Source of the DNA: Kordia zhangzhouensis
Lineage (GTDB): Bacteria; Bacteroidota; Bacteroidia; Flavobacteriales; Flavobacteriaceae
NCBI RefSeq assembly: GCF_001005305.1
Contig: NZ_LBMH01000008.1
Span: 89,516 to 153,515, forward strand
Reading direction: 5' to 3'
DNA length: 64,000 bases
The translations under genes were made by a program, and so were the position numbers. Shown piece by piece: positions 56,730 through 64,000 of the stretch. Under the pieces are notes generated by a model, which saw only the letters and a program-made list of their open reading frames with translations, was not told the DNA's origin and did no database searches. Position 1 is the first letter of the stretch. Each line of letters begins with the position of its first letter.

Positions 56730-58181
56730 CTATTCATTTTCTAATTGCTCAATAGCTTGTAGAATGTTATGTTTGTCTGCATCCAAATTATTGACAATAC
56801 TTCGAAAAAAAGCTTGTCGGTCTTTTAAATAATTCAATTCGTAAGTAACAGGAATGCCTTTATTTTCATAAGAATTTCCATGAGTATCCATATACACTTC
56901 GTTTGATAAAGCCACTATCCAACCATTAGGAAGTTTCTTTTCTAATGAAGTAGATGTAGCGCCAGATGTTGCCGAACCGATTCGTTTTACAGTTGGCATT
57001 GCCATGGTAGCAATAGAGAATGCTTCGGCGGCACTTCCAGTTTGTGGGGAAGTGAGTACATACAAAGGTTTTGTATATGCATTCTTGGTTCCTTTTATGT
57101 AGATAGGTAATGTAGCTGTATGCTTTCTTCCGTATTTTAATTGTTGTGTTGCTACGAGCAGTTCTTTTTCAGGAATAAATCTGCTCAAAATTTCAAAAGA
57201 AACTGCATCTTGTCCGCCACCATTAAAACGAATATCTATTACCATAGATTGCATTTGGGAGAGATCGGTCATTACCATATCCATAATTTTAGCAACTTCC
57301 GAGACTTCTTCATTAATGTACTGTCCGTCATACATCTTATGAAAAGTTTCAACAAAAGCATCTACATATCCTACAGCATCTATTCGTTGTTGAGGGACTT
57401 CAAGATTGGCAAAAAGCCACATGGTTTTTACTTGAATATACCCGATGCTGTCATTCATTTTTCCCCATTGTATCAAAGGAAATCGTAATCGGTAGTCTCT
57501 CGTTAGGTCTTCTTGTAAATGATGATTAGCAACCATTCCGGCTACTTGAATATCTCCATATTCTGACAATTTTTCTGTAGAATCCTCTATTTTTTCTTTT
57601 TCTGTTGAGGAGGCTTCTAACGCTTCATATAGAGAGTCTGAAGCTTCAAGAAAAGCGTGATTATCACCTAATAATTCCAAAGTTTCCTCTATAACTTGAT
57701 AGAACTCGAGTTCGGTGGATTGACTCGTTAATTTGCTTTTTTGACTTATATATAAACTGTCCCAATCGATTTGATTTAATTCAAAAAAAGCATAGTGTTC
57801 TTTTATATTTTCGGCAAAAACCTCAAAATTGTATAATGGATCTGTATTTTTTAATTCGGAAACTGTTGGTTTGCAATGAGTTGGTAATGTTTTTTTTTTA
57901 GAGAACTTATACGTGATAACTCCTTTAAGAAGTGAAAGAGTATCATTTTTAATAGACAAAGCAGGAAGCATTTCTTTAAGCAGTCCTTTCCTTCTAGGGA
58001 TGCATGAAATGGAAGTAATGTCATATAATTGATATGTTGTGCTATCGCTAATTTCCATAATCCATCCTGAACCAATTGATTCCCAAATTCCATTAATAGA
58101 TTCTTTTTCTTTGGTTGTAGTGGTTTGACAAGAAAATAGAATAAAACTGCACACAATAAATGTAAAGAAGTGCTTTGGCAT
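56730..58181 (-). CDS. S41 family peptidase lipoprotein
   Basis: A 483-residue lipoprotein (lipobox LFSC, Cys18). The N-terminal part (20-110) is beta-rich. The C-terminal half is an S41/tail-specific protease domain: SMVIDIRFNGGGQDAVSFE, YVLTSPQTGSAAEAFSIA with the catalytic serine, and RIGSATSGATSTSLEKKLPNGW. No PDZ domain is obvious, unlike CtpA. Likely surface or periplasmic processing or degradation; substrate unknown. It ends four bases from the convergent HxlR stop. Confidence 0.87.
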   Translation of the reverse strand: MPKHFFTFIVCSFILFSCQTTTTKEKESINGIWESIGSGWIMEISDSTTYQLYDITSISCIPRRKGLLKEMLPALSIKNDTLSLLKGVITYKFSKKKTLPTHCKPTVSELKNTDPLYNFEVFAENIKEHYAFFELNQIDWDSLYISQKSKLTSQSTELEFYQVIEETLELLGDNHAFLEASDSLYEALEASSTEKEKIEDSTEKLSEYGDIQVAGMVANHHLQEDLTRDYRLRFPLIQWGKMNDSIGYIQVKTMWLFANLEVPQQRIDAVGYVDAFVETFHKMYDGQYINEEVSEVAKIMDMVMTDLSQMQSMVIDIRFNGGGQDAVSFEILSRFIPEKELLVATQQLKYGRKHTATLPIYIKGTKNAYTKPLYVLTSPQTGSAAEAFSIATMAMPTVKRIGSATSGATSTSLEKKLPNGWIVALSNEVYMDTHGNSYENKGIPVTYELNYLKDRQAFFRSIVNNLDADKHNILQAIEQLENE

Positions 58182-58257
58182 AATGATGTGTTTATACCAA
58201 TGAGAACGCTTTTATTGAATTGTTACAGTTTTAATTGAAAGAGGATTGTTAAAAAAA

Positions 58258-58710
58258 TTACTCAAACACAATAGGGAGTTGCGTATTATCAATTTTAACA
58301 ATGTAAAAAGGCTGTGTCATAATCATAGAGACATTGCCACTAGGAGCTATATTCGTAACAGTTACTACAATACGATTAGTAGTAGCTGTAAGTTGAATAT
58401 CTAAATGGTAACCACCGCTAGTTCTTACTTCATCAAAAACAGCAATTACTCTATGCGTAGAAAAATCAATATCGGTTTCTGTGAAAGTATTTGAAGTGGT
58501 ATTGACAGCATTCATTTGAGCAATTAAATTTGTCCAAGTGGTAACATCTGAAATAATCATGTGCTTTTTACGAATGCCTTCTTCACCGTTTCCATGTAAA
58601 TTTCCTTTGGCAATCAGCGTAGACTCAATAGTAGTCACTTTTGTGTTGTTTTTTTGAGAACTACAGCTTATTAAAAATAGTAAAGCCAATAGTATGTAGA
58701 AATTTTTCAT
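58258..58710 (-). CDS. PrcB-like lipoprotein
   Basis: A 150-residue lipoprotein (lipobox LISC, Cys16). The C-terminal half follows the PrcB_C pattern: VIAVFDEVRTSGGYHLDIQL, then VTVTNIAPSGNVSMIMTQPF and YIVKI. PrcB in Treponema is part of a protease complex; the role here is unknown, though it sits next to a lipoprotein S41 protease gene with 76 bases between them on the same strand. Confidence 0.68.
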   Translation of the reverse strand: MKNFYILLALLFLISCSSQKNNTKVTTIESTLIAKGNLHGNGEEGIRKKHMIISDVTTWTNLIAQMNAVNTTSNTFTETDIDFSTHRVIAVFDEVRTSGGYHLDIQLTATTNRIVVTVTNIAPSGNVSMIMTQPFYIVKIDNTQLPIVFE

Positions 58711-58728
58711 AGATGTTTTACGGTTTAG

Positions 58729-59019
58729 TTAGTGTTTTGAAAGTTTGTCATTTCCTTTTTTATAATCGGCGAGTCTTTTTACGAGTGTATCAGTAAATGA
58801 GGTTTCTCTTTCTACTAAGATTTTTATTGGTTTGAATTTTGCCAAATTCTCCAATTTAGATTGTCTTTTCTCAGAATCTAAATCGTCAATAACGATTGCA
58901 GAGTAGTCAGACGTATTTGTAAAATGGAATGTTCCCAATATGTTTATTTTAGGTAGTAGCGATTGATTATTATTTTTAGTTTTATTAGTAACGCAGCGGG
59001 TTTTTCTAGGGAATGTATT
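58729..59019 (-). pseudogene. DUF5694 remnant, 5' part only
   Basis: An open frame from 59019 to the TAA at 58729 without an ATG. It encodes PKINILGTFHFTNTSDY, VIDDLDSEKRQSKLENLAKF and KPIKILVERE, the N-terminal signature of DUF5694 proteins (which run well over 200 residues). The frame stops after about 97 codons, and the rest of the domain is missing. It is squeezed between the PrcB-like and serine hydrolase genes, so deletion of both ends is likely. A TTG at 58938 could still allow a 69-residue product. Confidence 0.6.
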
Positions 59020-59032
59020 TTAGCTGAGAAAT

Positions 59033-60067
59033 TTATATTTTTTGTCTTTTCAGTATTTTAACAATTCTACTGTTTATAATCTCAGATAAGTTCCAATAAT
59101 ACAACTTAGGGTCAGTAGTGCTATAAAAGGCAACAACAACGGCGTCAAGATCTTTATCATAATTGGCAAAACTTTGGTATCCAGGAACCCAACCAGCATG
59201 TTCATATTCATAAATAGACGTATATATTTCTTGTTCTTCTGGTTCAAACAAAGATCCATCATTCAATGCTCTCAAAAAAGTACCTACATCTTCCGCCGTA
59301 GCATGCATGCCATAATCATTTGTTTTTAAGTCAGAAGAATATCCTACATGATAGCCACTCATTACATCATCAATATTCACTTCACTTAGTGAACTAAAAG
59401 TATTCTTAAGATGTAGCGGGTTTAAAATTTTTTCTTGAATAAATTGAAAATTGTCATATCCTAAAACATTATCCATAATCTTGTTGATTAAAAGATAGTT
59501 TGTATTGCAATATTCATAATCTTTACCGGGTTCAAAATGGGCAGGCATATCTAAAATCAAAGCAAGACTTTCTTCGTAGGTTGTTGTTGGAGCCGCCCAA
59601 AAATCGGGAGCATCTGTAAAATTAGGTAAGCCACTTTTATGCTGAATCATGAATCGCAAAGTAATTTTATCAGCATTTTCAATTCTTCCCACAAGTTCGG
59701 GTAAATAATCAGCAATGGTTTTATCTAAAGAAAGTTGTTCATTATGTACCAATTTTGTTACCGCCACTGCATCATATAGCTTACTAATGCTAGCAATCTT
59801 AAATAACGCATGCGGATTGGCAGGCGTTTTAGATTCTCGATGATGCCAACCAGAAGCTACATATTGAGGAGGCTTTCCCGTTTGATTGATATATACAATC
59901 ATTCCTTCAAAACCATGATTTATGGCCTCATTTAACTGTTCTTGAACTGTATTGGGTAGGGGAAGTATCCACGCTTTTACTAATAACCAAGGAACAAAAA
60001 ATAAGGAAGCTATCGAGGCAACTATAAACGTTATCTTCAGAAATTTTTTCGTTTGTTTCTTTCTCAT
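59033..60067 (-). CDS. membrane-anchored serine hydrolase, copy 2
   Basis: A 344-residue protein with the same build as the one at 53253-54290: N-terminal membrane anchor (FIVASIASLFFVPWLLVKAW), SxxK in KIASISKLYDAVA, YxN in YCNTNY, and HAGWVPGYQSFANYDKDLDA at the C-terminus. The two proteins align without large gaps and share most motifs, so they are paralogues from a duplication followed by insertion of other genes. Substrate unknown. Confidence 0.88.
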   Translation of the reverse strand: MRKKQTKKFLKITFIVASIASLFFVPWLLVKAWILPLPNTVQEQLNEAINHGFEGMIVYINQTGKPPQYVASGWHHRESKTPANPHALFKIASISKLYDAVAVTKLVHNEQLSLDKTIADYLPELVGRIENADKITLRFMIQHKSGLPNFTDAPDFWAAPTTTYEESLALILDMPAHFEPGKDYEYCNTNYLLINKIMDNVLGYDNFQFIQEKILNPLHLKNTFSSLSEVNIDDVMSGYHVGYSSDLKTNDYGMHATAEDVGTFLRALNDGSLFEPEEQEIYTSIYEYEHAGWVPGYQSFANYDKDLDAVVVAFYSTTDPKLYYWNLSEIINSRIVKILKRQKI

Positions 60068-60302
60068 TATTTAGTAGTGCTTGAATTGCTCTTGTAAATA
60101 TAGACAAATTAAAAACGTGCCAACACTGATAAATAATTTGGTAGCTTCAGAAACTAATAAATTTTCACAGATGTGATAAAATAGGTTGTCCCAGAGAGTT
60201 ATTCTAACTTTTACTATTTTTTAAAATTGAGTGATTCTGACTGTTAGCAAACTATGTTGGTTGATTTGTAGATGCTGTTTTGCAACATTTTTACATTCTA
60301 AA

Positions 60303-60755
60303 TTATTTATTTCGTTCTAATATTTTTTCTTTATCAGTTGAGTGAATTTCAAAAAATATAATTCCACTATCAACGATTTTAACTTCAAAATTGCGTTTAA
60401 TTTCATATCTATTATCCAAATCATTCGACAAGTACACAAATCCTAAAAATAGAATTCCAAATCCAATCCAAAACATAGTAGAAATGAGTTTAGGAATGTT
60501 AATCTTCCAAAATCGGTTAACGATTAAAGTTATCATTAGCCAAAAGACAAAATAGATCAGAAAATTGATTGTCATTTCAGTCAAAAAATATTGTGTCGAA
60601 AGTGAAGTGTGAAAACCTCTGCATTTATAAATTAGAGGGAATCCATAAAGGAATTCGTAAGTTTCGTTATTAATAATTCCATAACTCCATTTTGTAATGA
60701 TTCCGAATGAAATTAAAGTCAGAGGTAAAGTCATTCGAAATATTAAATTTTTCAT
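60303..60755 (-). CDS. four-helix membrane protein of unknown function
   Basis: A 150-residue protein with a first helix near the N-terminus (LPLTLISFGIITKW), further helices at about 55-80 and 89-111 (STMFWIGFGILFLGFVYLS) and a soluble C-terminal tail (RNFEVKIVDSGIIFFEIHS). I recognise no family. It is isolated: about 235 non-coding bases separate it from the serine hydrolase gene and about 115 from the YdeI-like gene. Confidence 0.55.
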   Translation of the reverse strand: MKNLIFRMTLPLTLISFGIITKWSYGIINNETYEFLYGFPLIYKCRGFHTSLSTQYFLTEMTINFLIYFVFWLMITLIVNRFWKINIPKLISTMFWIGFGILFLGFVYLSNDLDNRYEIKRNFEVKIVDSGIIFFEIHSTDKEKILERNK

Positions 60756-60870
60756 CTATTAAAGTTTGAGAGGAATAAGTATAGGTCTGTAATAGGAGTA
60801 AAGGTACTGATTTTTCAAATTATGTCTAGGGATATCTATTCCTTATACAACACATTGGCAATACCATTTT

Positions 60871-61449
60871 TTATCGTTCATTCATTCCTTTTCCGTTAAA
60901 GATTTTTGGTTTTGCCTTTTCAATTCTTGAAGTTCTTGTTTTGGACTGTTTGGCTTGTGAAAAGTATAGCAAATACCCTCTTTGTCGTCCAGGTGTCAAA
61001 TTGTAAAATGCAGTTTTAAATTCTAAGTCATTTTTAAATATGTGTTCGAGTTCTTCGGGCATTTCATATTCCGAAGTTTTTTTCATGTTAACTTCCAACC
61101 CTGCCTTTTCTACTTCTATTGCTTCAAAAATATAAGCTTTGATAACTGCTTTTAAATCATTGATTTGTTTCTTGTCTGTAAACCGTAATTGCCGAGCCGA
61201 TTGTACGTTTTCGGTCTGTTGTACCAAAATATTTTCGGTATCTTTTACTAAGGCACCTTTGTGAAAAAGTAAAGCACAATATTCCTTAAATCCGTGAATC
61301 AGAACTATATTTTTACCTTGAAAAGTATAGCAAGGGTGCATCCATTTAAAATCTTCGGTAAGCCCACATTCCAAGCAAATTTCTCTCAATAGGACAGTTT
61401 CCTCTTTCCAACTCTTACTGTTATCTATATAGTTGTCAACTTTTTCCAT
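60871..61449 (-). CDS. YdeI/OmpD-associated family protein
   Basis: A 192-residue protein with a DUF1801-like domain (about 14-110; LTEDFKWMHPCYTFQGKNI, HKGALVKDTENI) and the YdeI C-terminal block (EYEMPEELEHIFKNDLEFK, FYNLTPGRQRGYLLYFSQAK, KTRTSRIEKAKPKIFNGKG). A fold related to antibiotic-type or iron-binding proteins has been suggested for this family; function unknown. ATG 61449 is preferred; ATG 61500 would add 17 poorly conserved residues. Confidence 0.87.
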   Translation of the reverse strand: MEKVDNYIDNSKSWKEETVLLREICLECGLTEDFKWMHPCYTFQGKNIVLIHGFKEYCALLFHKGALVKDTENILVQQTENVQSARQLRFTDKKQINDLKAVIKAYIFEAIEVEKAGLEVNMKKTSEYEMPEELEHIFKNDLEFKTAFYNLTPGRQRGYLLYFSQAKQSKTRTSRIEKAKPKIFNGKGMNER

Positions 61450-61533
61450 GTGTAGCCTTGTTTTTGTAGTGCTTTTATTTATACGGTTCACACCATTCAT
61501 TCAATCTATTATACACTTTGCCGTATGCAGTCT

Positions 61534-61743
61534 TTATTTTTTGTTGATTTTGCAAGTTTTAATTCCAAATGGAGCATAAAGTGGACAAAAACTAATCACA
61601 CTTGTTAAAACGAAAACTCCCGCTAAAACCAATAAAACAATACCTAATGTACCTGGGATTGTTCCTGTAAAATAAAGAATACCAACTATTGCAGCGATTA
61701 TAACTCTTATAATTCTGTCTGCTGAACCCATATTTTTTGTCAT
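61534..61743 (-). CDS. DUF2892 membrane protein
   Basis: A 69-residue protein with MTKNMGSADRIIRVIIAAIV and two hydrophobic helices (GILYFTGTIPGTLGIVLLVL; VFVLTSVISFCPLYAPFGI), ending in CKINKK. The N-terminal start and the C-P-L-Y-x-P-x-G-I motif are typical of YgaP-like DUF2892 proteins, often linked to thiol or sulfide stress. It lies 75 bases downstream of the Crp/Fnr gene on the same strand. Confidence 0.87.
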   Translation of the reverse strand: MTKNMGSADRIIRVIIAAIVGILYFTGTIPGTLGIVLLVLAGVFVLTSVISFCPLYAPFGIKTCKINKK

Positions 61744-61818
61744 AATTGAAAATTTTAAATAATTAAAAGATTACCTTACAAAGGTACATAGTTGTTTATA
61801 GCTATGCAGTGACTACAG

Positions 61819-62445
61819 TCACCACTCGTTAATAATTTTTAGGTTACCTGATTTTTGTTCAACTTTTCCATCTGTTTCAAGCTTTTTTAAAACTCTAGTA
61901 ATCACTTCACGAGCAGTTCCTAATTCATTTGCTATTTGAGAATGGCTCATTTTAACAGAATTGTTATGACTTAATTCAGTTTTCTTTTTTAAATGGTCGT
62001 ATAATCTTTTATCCATTTTGTCCAATAACAAGCTACCTATTGTATCTAAAAGCTCCGAATATCTCAAATTAAACTGATTGTAAAATAGTTCGTTAAAGTC
62101 TGGGTATTCTTTTAACCAAGCAGGTAACAAATGAACGGGTAATAAAAGGACTGTTGAATTTTCTTCTGTTTTGGCAAATACTTTACTAGGTGTATTTTTT
62201 AACGCAGCATAAAAAGTCATCACGCAGCTTTGATCTGGTTCAATATAGTAGAGTAGTAATTCTTTGTCATTAAATCTAGAATATACTTTTATGAGTCCAT
62301 TAATAACAATCGGTAAAACTTTGACGTACTGTTGTTCTCTTAAAATTTCTGTTCCTTTTGAAAACTCCTTAACGGTTGATGCACTACATATTTTTTCTAC
62401 TAAATCAGTTTTTAAGAAAGACAATATTTTTTTGTCAAAATTCAT
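61819..62445 (-). CDS. Crp/Fnr family transcriptional regulator
   Basis: A 208-residue regulator with an N-terminal cyclic-nucleotide-binding-like jelly roll (about 15-120) and a winged helix (about 150-208) with KMSHSQIANELGTAREVITR and VLKKLETDGKVEQKSG. The effector-domain residues contacting cAMP in E. coli Crp are not evident, so a different ligand or none is likely. DUF2892 is immediately downstream and may be its target. Confidence 0.9.
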   Translation of the reverse strand: MNFDKKILSFLKTDLVEKICSASTVKEFSKGTEILREQQYVKVLPIVINGLIKVYSRFNDKELLLYYIEPDQSCVMTFYAALKNTPSKVFAKTEENSTVLLLPVHLLPAWLKEYPDFNELFYNQFNLRYSELLDTIGSLLLDKMDKRLYDHLKKKTELSHNNSVKMSHSQIANELGTAREVITRVLKKLETDGKVEQKSGNLKIINEW

Positions 62446-62510
62446 TTTGCATCATTTTAATAGGTTGCACATAACGTATTTGTATATCTTATTCTATACA
62501 AAGTAAGAAA

Positions 62511-62606
62511 ATGTATCAAGAAAAAGTTTTCAACAATTTCCAGTTAAGTGATTGTATTCCTAAAGAGAACTTTTATCGTCGTTTGTTGGCAGTTTTAATC
62601 TATTAA
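62511..62606 (+). mobile_element. transposase N-terminal fragment (IS1182-like)
   Basis: ATG 62511 opens a 31-codon frame encoding MYQEKVFNNFQLSDCIPKEN and FYRRLLAVL, which resembles the N-terminus of Bacteroidota IS1182-type transposases. The frame stops at 62604-62606 and no more of the element is found, so this is a scrap of a deleted insertion sequence. Confidence 0.55.
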
Positions 62607-62663
62607 TTTACAGTAAAATGTTCTTTAAAAAGGCAATTCTCGTTTTTATAAAATCATAGGTTT

Positions 62664-62689
62664 GCGCAACGGTTATCATTGTTACCTGC
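62664..62689 (-). repeat. short cassette border element 1
   Basis: GCGCAACGGTTATCATTGTTACCTGC: an AAC-GG half at the left and a CATTGTT half at the right, like the ends of the longer element at 63171-63306 but with the centre missing. The GTTACCTGC at 62681-62689 is complementary to GCAGGTAAC at 63171-63179. Confidence 0.55.
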
Positions 62690-62797
62690 TGGCTTTTTTT
62701 AATTTATGTTCGTCATATTCGAACTTGTGGGATTTTCCACTTTGTTCAGGATTCCAGCCTAAATTTTTAGCTTGTCTTATTATTGTCCTTGATTTTT

Positions 62798-63157
62798 TTA
62801 GTCAATGTGATCTTCAAACCATTTATTTCCGCAGTGTCTGCATTGTCTTGCTTTAGGTGTTCTCGCTAACTTTTGACAATTCGGACAATTGTTTAGAAAG
62901 ATTTCTTCTCTATGTTCCTTTAATATTCGGCTCGCTGTGTTTATAAAAAATTCTGTTTCTCCATTTTTGATTAATTCAAGAGCTTCTTTATCAGTCGTTA
63001 TCCAACCTTTACGTTTATAAATTTTATATCGAGATGAGCTTTCAGGTTCTCCATTAAGTTTAAATAACGAATTTATATGACGATAAGCGATATTTTCCTT
63101 TACGTTGAAATATTTATGGTAGTGATTTGAAATATATCTTGCTGTTTCTATCTTCAT
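62798..63157 (-). CDS. zinc-ribbon protein in cassette-like unit A, probably frameshifted
   Basis: A 119-residue protein of unknown family. The C-terminal CPNCQKLARTPKARQCRHCG is a zinc ribbon with two CxxC knuckles. The frame stops at a TAA next to a run of seven A residues. Continuing in the -1 frame gives LKKSRTIIRQAKNLGWNPEQ and SGKSHKFEYDEHKLKKASR, ending in a TAA inside the border arm at 62682-62684. This looks like a one-base deletion in an original gene of about 158 codons. The start lies 13 bases inside the other border arm. Confidence 0.6.
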   Translation of the reverse strand: MKIETARYISNHYHKYFNVKENIAYRHINSLFKLNGEPESSSRYKIYKRKGWITTDKEALELIKNGETEFFINTASRILKEHREEIFLNNCPNCQKLARTPKARQCRHCGNKWFEDHID

Positions 63158-63170
63158 CGGTTTTTAGCTT

Positions 63171-63306
63171 GCAGGTAACGGTCTAGTGTATGATTTCGTT
63201 GCGTGTTTAAGCACTAAAGTTAGCAAATAAATCACAGATAGAAAGTCCGCGAGGACTTTCGTAAGTAGGCGAGAACAAGCAATTACTTATAGCCATTGTT
63301 AGCAGC
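63171..63306 (-). repeat. cassette-separating hairpin element 2
   Basis: A 136-base element between two genes. Left end GCAGGTAACGG, right end GCCATTGTTAGCAGC; the inner parts (TAAC-GG and CC-ATT-GTTA) pair with a three-base bulge. The centre has a perfect 8-bp hairpin with a GCGA (GNRA) loop, GAAAGTCC-GCGA-GGACTTTC (63241-63260). I recall similar sequences scattered through Flavobacteriia genomes; this must be verified. Compare integron attC sites: hairpin, AAC...GTT ends. Confidence 0.6.
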
Positions 63307-63319
63307 TGGTTTTTTTTAT

Positions 63320-63889
63320 TTATATATAGAAATATTTCCACAACCAAATTCCAGAGTAATTGGTTATGCACATATCTTTTATTTTAAAGGTAATTATTTT
63401 GTCATTAGGTTTTGGTTTAATATTTTCTCCATTCATTAATTGTTTGAATAGATATGATTTTTCTTTAAACCACTTTTCTTTTTGATTTGTTGAAACTGCG
63501 TATACTTTTAAGTAATTTTTATTTTCGGTCAATTCAGTCACAATGTCGTCAAGAATTGAATCATCTTGAAATTCAGAATCAGATTCTTTATCAATCCAAC
63601 CATTATCTTTTAAAACTTGAATTCCGTTATTAAGGTTAGGTTTATCTTTTAATTCTATTTCAAAATTTATATCAATCAATCCATATTTTGCTATAGTTCC
63701 TTTTATGCTATTACTTTCATTTGATTTCACTTGTACATTAAGGCTTTCTTCCACAAGAAGCTTTATTTCTTCTGCAATTTCTTCTCCACTTTTGGATATA
63801 TTAATTGGGATTTCAATTCCGACGTAATCAGTTAATGAATTATATGCTAATTCTCTATTTATTGTTCTTAATGTGCTTATACTATTCAC
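63320..63889 (-). CDS. unknown protein in cassette-like unit B
   Basis: A 189-residue protein with no family I recognise. The first part (DYVGIEIPINISKSGEEIAE) looks like a small alpha/beta domain; the rest is acidic and strand-rich, ending ITNYSGIWLWKYFYI. No signal peptide or membrane helix. The start is GTG 63889, because an in-frame TAA lies four codons upstream and no ATG is near. The coding region fits tightly between border arms at 63298-63306 and 63906-63914. Confidence 0.65.
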   Translation of the reverse strand: MNSISTLRTINRELAYNSLTDYVGIEIPINISKSGEEIAEEIKLLVEESLNVQVKSNESNSIKGTIAKYGLIDINFEIELKDKPNLNNGIQVLKDNGWIDKESDSEFQDDSILDDIVTELTENKNYLKVYAVSTNQKEKWFKEKSYLFKQLMNGENIKPKPNDKIITFKIKDMCITNYSGIWLWKYFYI

Positions 63890-63905
63890 GGTCGTTTCTT
63901 AACTT

Positions 63906-64000
63906 GCTGCTAACATACGTATAACAGGAATTCCTCTTTGTATACCAAATTTGGTATATAACAGGAACTCTGTCTATAGTAACTTCTTGTTATTTTGTAT
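63906..64000 (-). repeat. cassette border element 3 (cut by window)
   Basis: It begins with GCTGCTAAC, complementary to GTTAGCAGC at 63298-63306. Beyond are two ATAACAGGA repeats (63921 and 63957) flanking a perfect 18-base palindrome, TATACCAAATTTGGTATA (63941-63958). Its sequence differs from element 2 apart from the border. The other end lies outside the window. Confidence 0.5.

Follow-up and report, generated by a model that had tools for sequence, protein, structure and literature searches.

Two single-gene units near the end of a 64,000-nt stretch of the Kordia zhangzhouensis genome (the window) are very probably cassettes of an integron-like system, likely moved by a non-IntI tyrosine recombinase related to XerA and IntI. 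With somewhat less assurance, we also consider it likely that this is a second kind of integron in Bacteroidota, with a recombinase that lacks the IntI insertion, its own attI/attC grammar, arrays of superintegron size, and a presence in most genomes of one family; in the genus of the window, promoter-plus-attI pads would be dispersed over the genome, with one integrase possibly serving many arrays.

The window array

The initial annotation had described units A and B as an integron-cassette-like array, each unit being bounded by its own complementary arms. These arms are present and are perfect 9-base complements in both units: GTTACCTGC (62681-62689) and GCAGGTAAC (63171-63179) in unit A, and GTTAGCAGC (63298-63306) and GCTGCTAAC (63906-63914) in unit B. 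Genes A and B do point the same way; since both lie on the minus strand, each unit, in gene orientation, starts with GTT plus arm at its high-coordinate end. The feature list below uses gene orientation, in which the arm strings are GTTAGCAGC at 63906-63914, GCTGCTAAC at 63298-63306, GTTACCTGC at 63171-63179, and GCAGGTAAC at 62681-62689; the array then runs from the window end through unit B, a 124-nt site, and unit A.

63915..64000, minus strand: 3' part of a promoter-plus-attI-like "landing pad," truncated by the contig end; its core, ..CCTGTTATACGTAT/GTTAG, adjoins unit B
63180..63914, minus strand: cassette B (unit B plus its attC body), the first cassette after the pad, starting GTTAGCAGC
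63906..63914, minus strand: R' arm of cassette B, GTTAGCAGC
63320..63889, minus strand: gene B, 189 aa, GTG start; an 88% identical protein is found in L052
63298..63306, minus strand: R'' arm of cassette B, GCTGCTAAC
63177..63300, minus strand: attC-like site of cassette B, AAC..GTT, 124 nt
63288..63294, 63241..63260, and 63186..63192, minus strand: parts of that site, namely L'' (GGCTATA), hairpin GAAAGTCC..GGACTTTC, and L' (CATACAC)
62681..63179, minus strand: cassette A (unit A), with arms GTTACCTGC (63171-63179) and GCAGGTAAC (62681-62689)
62798..63157, minus strand: gene A, 119 aa, Cys-rich C terminus
62489..62680, no strand assigned: insertion sequence (IS) remnant within the attC-like site of cassette A (limits by eye)
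62466..62488, minus strand: probable right half of the cassette A attC plus the start arm of a third cassette, GATATAC..CGTTATGTGCA (by eye)

The window ends (64000) where its contig ends. A pad query matches G000:C42:153418-153484:- (window 63903-63969; E = 1.8e-16), and nearly the same pad sequence also lies behind a recombinase remnant on contig C10. Gene B matched no Pfam family at E ≤ 0.01, and gene A gave a weak match to the double-zinc-ribbon family (17.2 bits; cutoff, 27.3). The L'' and L' boxes of the cassette B site pair poorly, because its left half is of one site type and its right half of another; the same cassette in L052 (genome G157) carries the matching left half, GTGTATAATTC. 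By this comparison, the cassette B attC is a chimera of two site types.

The IS remnant in the cassette A site keeps its transposase start (plus strand, ATG at 62511), while the internal part is gone; an intact copy in L240 codes for a 521-aa DDE transposase with an N terminus similar to that of the remnant. The terminal GGTAACCGTTGCACAACCC-type end of this IS recurs beside R'' arms within the genus; because it repeatedly lies directly behind them, attC sites of this family are possible targets for it. A Crp/Fnr gene (61819-62445) starts behind the attC-like right half GATATAC..CGTTATGTGCA and, from this placement, is probably the third cassette of the array; a search of the window for a matching R'' arm found none.

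In all, the window has one clear site (63177-63300) and one interrupted site, and its visible part, up to the contig end at 64000, carries no recombinase, as had been reported at first. An Rfam search of 58000-64000 gave no match. Perfect GTT+6/6+AAC pairs spaced 200 to 1,500 nt apart number 13 in the window, compared with an average of 17.0 across 100 sequences drawn from a first-order Markov model, of which 86 hold at least as many; the last 4 kb of the window has 2 such pairs (1.03 expected). Since arm pairs are not in excess, the window alone is insufficient, and the claim depends on the genome-wide and cross-genome tests.

Anatomy and distribution of the attC-like site

When used as a query, interval 63160-63325 found ten places in its own genome at E ≤ 1e-6; these include the interval itself and are spread over eight contigs. 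The copies share an anatomy: NNNNNNYAAC, 3 nt, L'' (GGCTATA, GTGTATA, GTATAAC, and others), a variable middle that frequently contains a GAAAATCC..GGATTTTC hairpin, L', approximately 6 nt, and GTTRNNNNNN. RNAalifold, run on a small alignment, recovered the central hairpin only, and we then specified the R/L pairing manually; with this pairing, 85.5% of cells in eight sites are paired, compared with 28 to 36% when the pairing is slid. In the same eight sites 12 cells are changed on both sides versus 5.7 in shuffled sites, a covariation count that comes from only 8 sequences and from a structure drawn from those same sequences. A complementary L''/L' word of ≥6 nt occurs in 86% of 251 distinct sites versus 28% when the partner is of another type. 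As a single strand, the window site folds only mildly better than its shuffles (z = −1.9). Positions 11 and 12 of the R' side are AT or AG in 412 of 426 arms; only 34 of these 426 fit GTTRRRY, consistent with the original remark that the sites depart from this classical consensus.

An early attC finder based on box pairing was too noisy. The counts that follow come from R1, a covariance model describing the site that separates units A and B. R1 found 16 sites in the K. zhangzhouensis genome at E ≤ 1, and 169 of 199 sampled genomes of the family have at least one site at E ≤ 0.01. On stretches of five foreign genomes plus the genome of the window (383 kb), it gave 298 matches at E ≤ 0.1. The arrays are each one-stranded (two weak off-strand rows were excluded from the counts) and can be large: 94 sites over 76 kb in G113, 86 over 75 kb in G068, 42 in G159, 39 in G014, and 13 in G087.

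Arms match within cassettes

We compared the R' arm at the start of each cassette with the R'' arm at its end, taken from neighboring sites. Five or more complementary bases beyond GTT were found in 238 of 263 cassettes from the array stretches and in 52 of 61 from independent named loci, compared with 3.0% and 3.7% in the shuffled control, while arms that face each other across one site, and so belong to neighboring cassettes, matched in 4.2% of 286 and 7.6% of 92 cases. What had been proposed from two units, namely, that the match is kept within a unit and not between neighbors, holds in these tests. The complementary run reaches a maximum of GTT+7, i.e., up to 10 bp. The prediction that arms match across the enclosed gene held for most cassettes in other genera and for part of those in the genome of the window: among nine cassettes there, the run is GTT+7 in five and GTT+3 in one, and three have no match beyond GTT; units A and B retain GTT+6. 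With a full arm in only five of the nine, the arrays of this genome appear partly decayed.

A tyrosine recombinase heads the arrays

A search for tyrosine recombinases near such arrays had been recommended, and they were found at array heads. A 394-aa tyrosine recombinase (Pfam PF00589 plus a SAM-like domain) heads the G068 and G113 arrays and is read in the array direction; in G068, its gene adjoins an apparent DNA primase gene (by eye; L085 1-2553). The recombinases range from 385 to 428 aa, and in an alignment of 23 relatives the catalytic residues R, K, H, R, H, and Y never vary, and about 95 additional residues are seen at the N-terminal side. By eye, the N-terminal domain of the 428-aa form from the genus of the window (L256-L259) looks doubled compared with that of the 394-aa form.

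At E ≤ 1e-60, the recombinase is found in 86 of the 199 family genomes. Sites occur in 80 of these 86 (6 have none) and also in 89 of the 113 genomes without a recombinase match, so that site and enzyme are not tightly coupled; the sites in the latter genomes would have to be relics or be served by more distant enzymes. Our scan of named genomes examined the best 80 of at least 589 confirmed recombinase relatives. Among these 80 are proteins from Lutibacter, Polaribacter, Gillisia, Algibacter, Winogradskyella, Bizionia, Zunongwangia, and others, with more distant relatives in Cyclobacterium, Algoriphagus, Membranihabitans, and Bacteroidales bins. At the loci of the same 80, R1 gave 100 matches at E ≤ 0.01 in 28 loci, all downstream of the recombinase gene and on its strand, and none in the 691 kb upstream. 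With group I defined by ≥42% identity and group II being distant, R1 matched 24 of 34 group I loci and 2 of 17 group II loci, for which it was not built, among those of the best 80 with ≥800 nt downstream; arm pairs in L200 (Cyclobacterium plantarum) suggest that an array may be present there too. In tblastn searches with the integrase, all matches in phage records were <60% identical, one of them covering ≥80% of the query; among the matches listed for plasmid records, Chryseobacterium, Persicobacter, Rufibacter, and other Bacteroidota came first.

The recombinase differs from both IntI and the Xer proteins of the genus. The catalytic Lys and His are separated by 63 aligned residues in groups I and III, 63 to 64 in group II, 68 to 71 in the Xer proteins, and 105 in 18 of 18 IntI proteins; residues ∼212 to 247 of IntI 2a3v are without a partner in the alignment. 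By alignment, this recombinase lacks the ∼42-residue IntI insertion. The accessible text of PMC8138268 describes that insertion as essential for integron function, yet not fully conserved in an "integron-like" subgroup. The IntI model TIGR02249 scored the recombinases at 213 and 209 bits, in two pieces (cutoff, 265). A canonical IntI was sought in the family and not found: none of the 199 genomes was above cutoff in a scan in which no control genome matched either, although the same model was above cutoff in 105 of 395 genomes of the phylum, which serve as its positive control. The XerA-type model NF040815 was barely exceeded (220.6 and 223.2; cutoff, 220).

By sequence, the closest solved structures are XerA (5hxy), an archaeal protein (4a8e), and then IntI (2a3v); the structure that AlphaFold predicts for the integrase, with a mean pLDDT of 80.8, a pTM of 0.53, and weak C-terminal parts, gave XerA, archaeal Xer, and IntI as the first Foldseek matches. 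In a 67-protein tree, single branches set apart IntI (100/100), Xer (100/99), group I (100/99), and the 428-aa form (100/100). Groups I to III come together with moderate support (93/79), and the tree has long branches. A non-IntI tyrosine recombinase at array heads accords with the early suspicion of a divergent or new system.

An attI-like site and dispersed putative landing pads

Behind the recombinase stop lies a conserved site, approximately TATATTTNNNNNNATATAACNAGTTR. Its motif ATATAACNAGTTR, or a close form, follows 26 of 30 integrases, at 18 to 36 nt from the start of the stop codon in 23 loci and at 105 to 199 nt in 3; by eye, the remaining four loci have one-letter variants. In L108 and L112 the stop lies 105 to 163 nt before attI, yet the TTTATCCGGAA stretch is still in the DNA, hinting that this stretch, which elsewhere codes for the recombinase C terminus, may be part of the attI-like site. 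From attI and the letters downstream of it, G193 corresponds to an Aurantibacter aestuarii locus and G007 to a Salinimicrobium catena locus; both are Flavobacteriaceae. In G113 the first cassette starts at the attI GTT, and its far arm R'', AAACCCAAC, matches over 9 bases. In G068 two genes precede the matching far arm, and between these genes lies a site-like stretch whose arms do not fit.

Among 11 genomes of the genus of the window, the 428-aa relative is intact in four, and one has a group I copy. In K. zhangzhouensis itself, the closest relative of these integrases found beside an attI is a 66-aa remnant with three stops nearby. An attI ending ..ATACRTACGTTR stands behind the four intact 428-aa genes and behind the remnant; elsewhere, elements of about 150 nt have the same kind of attI end and no recombinase in the 230 nt upstream. 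A conserved promoter-like box of consensus TTG-N17-23-TAnnTTTR, which may correspond to the cassette promoter Pc of integrons, precedes this end; it is found in 29 of 30 pads versus 5% of random stretches, the pads having been picked by likeness to a box-bearing pad. Ten of the 11 genomes yield 4 to 13 pad matches each, some partial; in G205 there are none. Among 21 pads whose core is intact, 13 are followed by a cassette with a far arm that matches over ≥9 nt within 1.5 kb (1.3% for comparison), and for the other 8 a far arm of that length was not found within that distance. We infer that these elements may be integrase-less landing pads.

Footprints of probable cassette movement

Among 357 cassettes, 98 pairs (64 cassettes) were ≥95% identical in register; 78 of the 98 come from a single genome, G113, where some may reflect duplicated array segments. 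In 84 of the 98 pairs, homology stops no more than 7 nt from the predicted junction; it starts within −4 to +2 in 29, and both ends fit in 26. In 69% of the pairs it continues upstream into the preceding, similar site; in 5 it reaches, or nearly reaches, the end of the 150-nt flank past the junction. No pair between genomes was ≥95% identical: the best, G068 versus G159, links two genera at 93.8% over 840 bp.

Unit B recurs in another genus (G157, L052) with 88% DNA identity (669/762). Homology starts exactly at GTTAGCAGC, upstream of which there is a pad here and an attC there, and the alignment stops 22 nt beyond the next GTT; the genes that follow differ. Homology junctions that lie mostly at the arms, together with the arm rule and the head recombinase, favor the reading of the units as integron-like cassettes. 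Twenty assemblies break ≤260 nt from the recombinase stop; 10 of them end at GTT(N), compared with 3.2% expected, and 8 of those 10 end at an attI core by eye. The breaks look like the result of coexisting or repeated first cassettes; they could also come from a first cassette that is repeated elsewhere.

Alternative explanations and proposed mechanism

The possibility to which we give most room, though we think it improbable, is that the cassettes are real but are moved by another recombinase, such as XerC/XerD, the head gene being a mere neighbor. Many genomes do have sites and no detected head recombinase, as such a reading would have it. It does not readily account for the fixed position and strand of all 100 R1 matches at the best 80 of at least 589 loci, nor for an attI-like core right behind the head gene in 26 of 30 cases, and the head-gene clade is apart from the Xer proteins of the genus (100/99). 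An ordinary integron, in which the arrays are CALINs filled by a classical IntI located elsewhere or formerly present, seems to us very improbable. The anatomy of the sites is attC-like, and in the available part of PMC9892861, IntI1 recombined one of two tested attC sites of phage P12002L, which R1 matches, with attI1; against this stand the lack of IntI above cutoff in the 199 family genomes, the array heads that bear another recombinase with its own attI-like site, and the rarity of GTTRRRY.

Hardly credible, in our view, is the notion of immobile or passively spread repeats, such as terminator hairpins, or elements of the MITE type whose terminal inverted repeats surround single genes. The elements are short, AT-rich, and hairpin bearing, and the window alone has no excess of arm pairs. 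However, the arms vary between units and match within them, unlike fixed terminal inverted repeats; the units point in one direction across tens of kilobases; and the homology of recurring units mostly stops at the arms. A fixed-end transposon or MITE was rejected because the arms differ from unit to unit.

Under the preferred reading of an integron-like system with its own recombinase, the enzyme would join attC to attI, or to another attC, at the GTT core; attC would take part as a single strand folded on itself, as it does in classical integrons; and each cassette would bring its own R' arm to its new place. In the genus of the window, pads without an integrase may start satellite arrays that are served in trans. 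The window would contain one such array: pad, cassette B, chimeric attC, cassette A, IS-broken attC, and probably a Crp/Fnr cassette. With the integrase present only as a 66-aa remnant in this genome, the array is probably frozen in this strain.

Relation to known systems

Chromosomal integrons and superintegrons with IntI, such as those of Vibrio, are one-directional arrays of small genes, in which a cassette is a gene plus its attC and an attI lies at the head. The system described here shares with them R' and R'' arms that match within a cassette, R and L boxes, a GTT core, one-directional arrays of small genes, an attI-like site at the head, and integrase-less clusters. It differs in that its integrase is without the IntI insertion (63 to 64 residues versus 105) and has about 95 additional N-terminal residues, reads in the same direction as the array with the attI-like site after its stop (in the loci seen), and is found with arms of up to 10 bp that mostly do not fit GTTRRRY. 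Like CALINs, the window array has sites and cassettes and no integrase on its visible part; unlike them, several clusters in this genus start with a conserved promoter-plus-attI pad. As for XerA-type proteins (NF040815; PDB 5hxy), they are the closest solved relatives of these recombinases, which differ in lying at cassette arrays, in their N-terminal addition, and in grouping away from both IntI and the Xer proteins of the genus in the tree. Overlap with the "integron-like" subgroup of PMC8138268, which likewise does not fully conserve the insertion in the text available, is possible.

Polaribacter phage P12002L infects hosts of this family, and the portion of PMC9892861 at hand reports that IntI1 used one of its two tested attC sites in E. 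coli; that portion names no host integrase, attI, or array of the present kind. In this phage (L315), R1 gave twelve moderate to weak matches at E ≤ 1 (best E, 2.1e-8), several of them around methyltransferase genes, which may include the published attC sites; they suggest that lytic phages of the same hosts may carry such cassettes. BLAST of one site against phage records gave no match, although R1 matches P12002L. According to the accessible parts of the reports, Bacteroidota are among the phyla with integrons (PMC8618304, PMC9668308), and Bacteroidetes proper have one complete integron, in Salinibacter (PMC9024848). A literature search of titles and abstract openings, with preprints and most subscription papers outside its scope, found no non-IntI integron and no Flavobacteriaceae cassette superarrays, and the portions of the integron literature examined do not mention integrase-less promoter-plus-attI pads.

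If the proposed system is real, integron gene collecting can rest on an enzyme without the IntI insertion, and these recombinases would offer a natural comparison for the recognition of folded attC. The family would also hold a big reservoir of small cassette genes that searches tuned to IntI and GTTRRRY have likely missed, and the pads would represent an unusual layout: one enzyme with many expression platforms.
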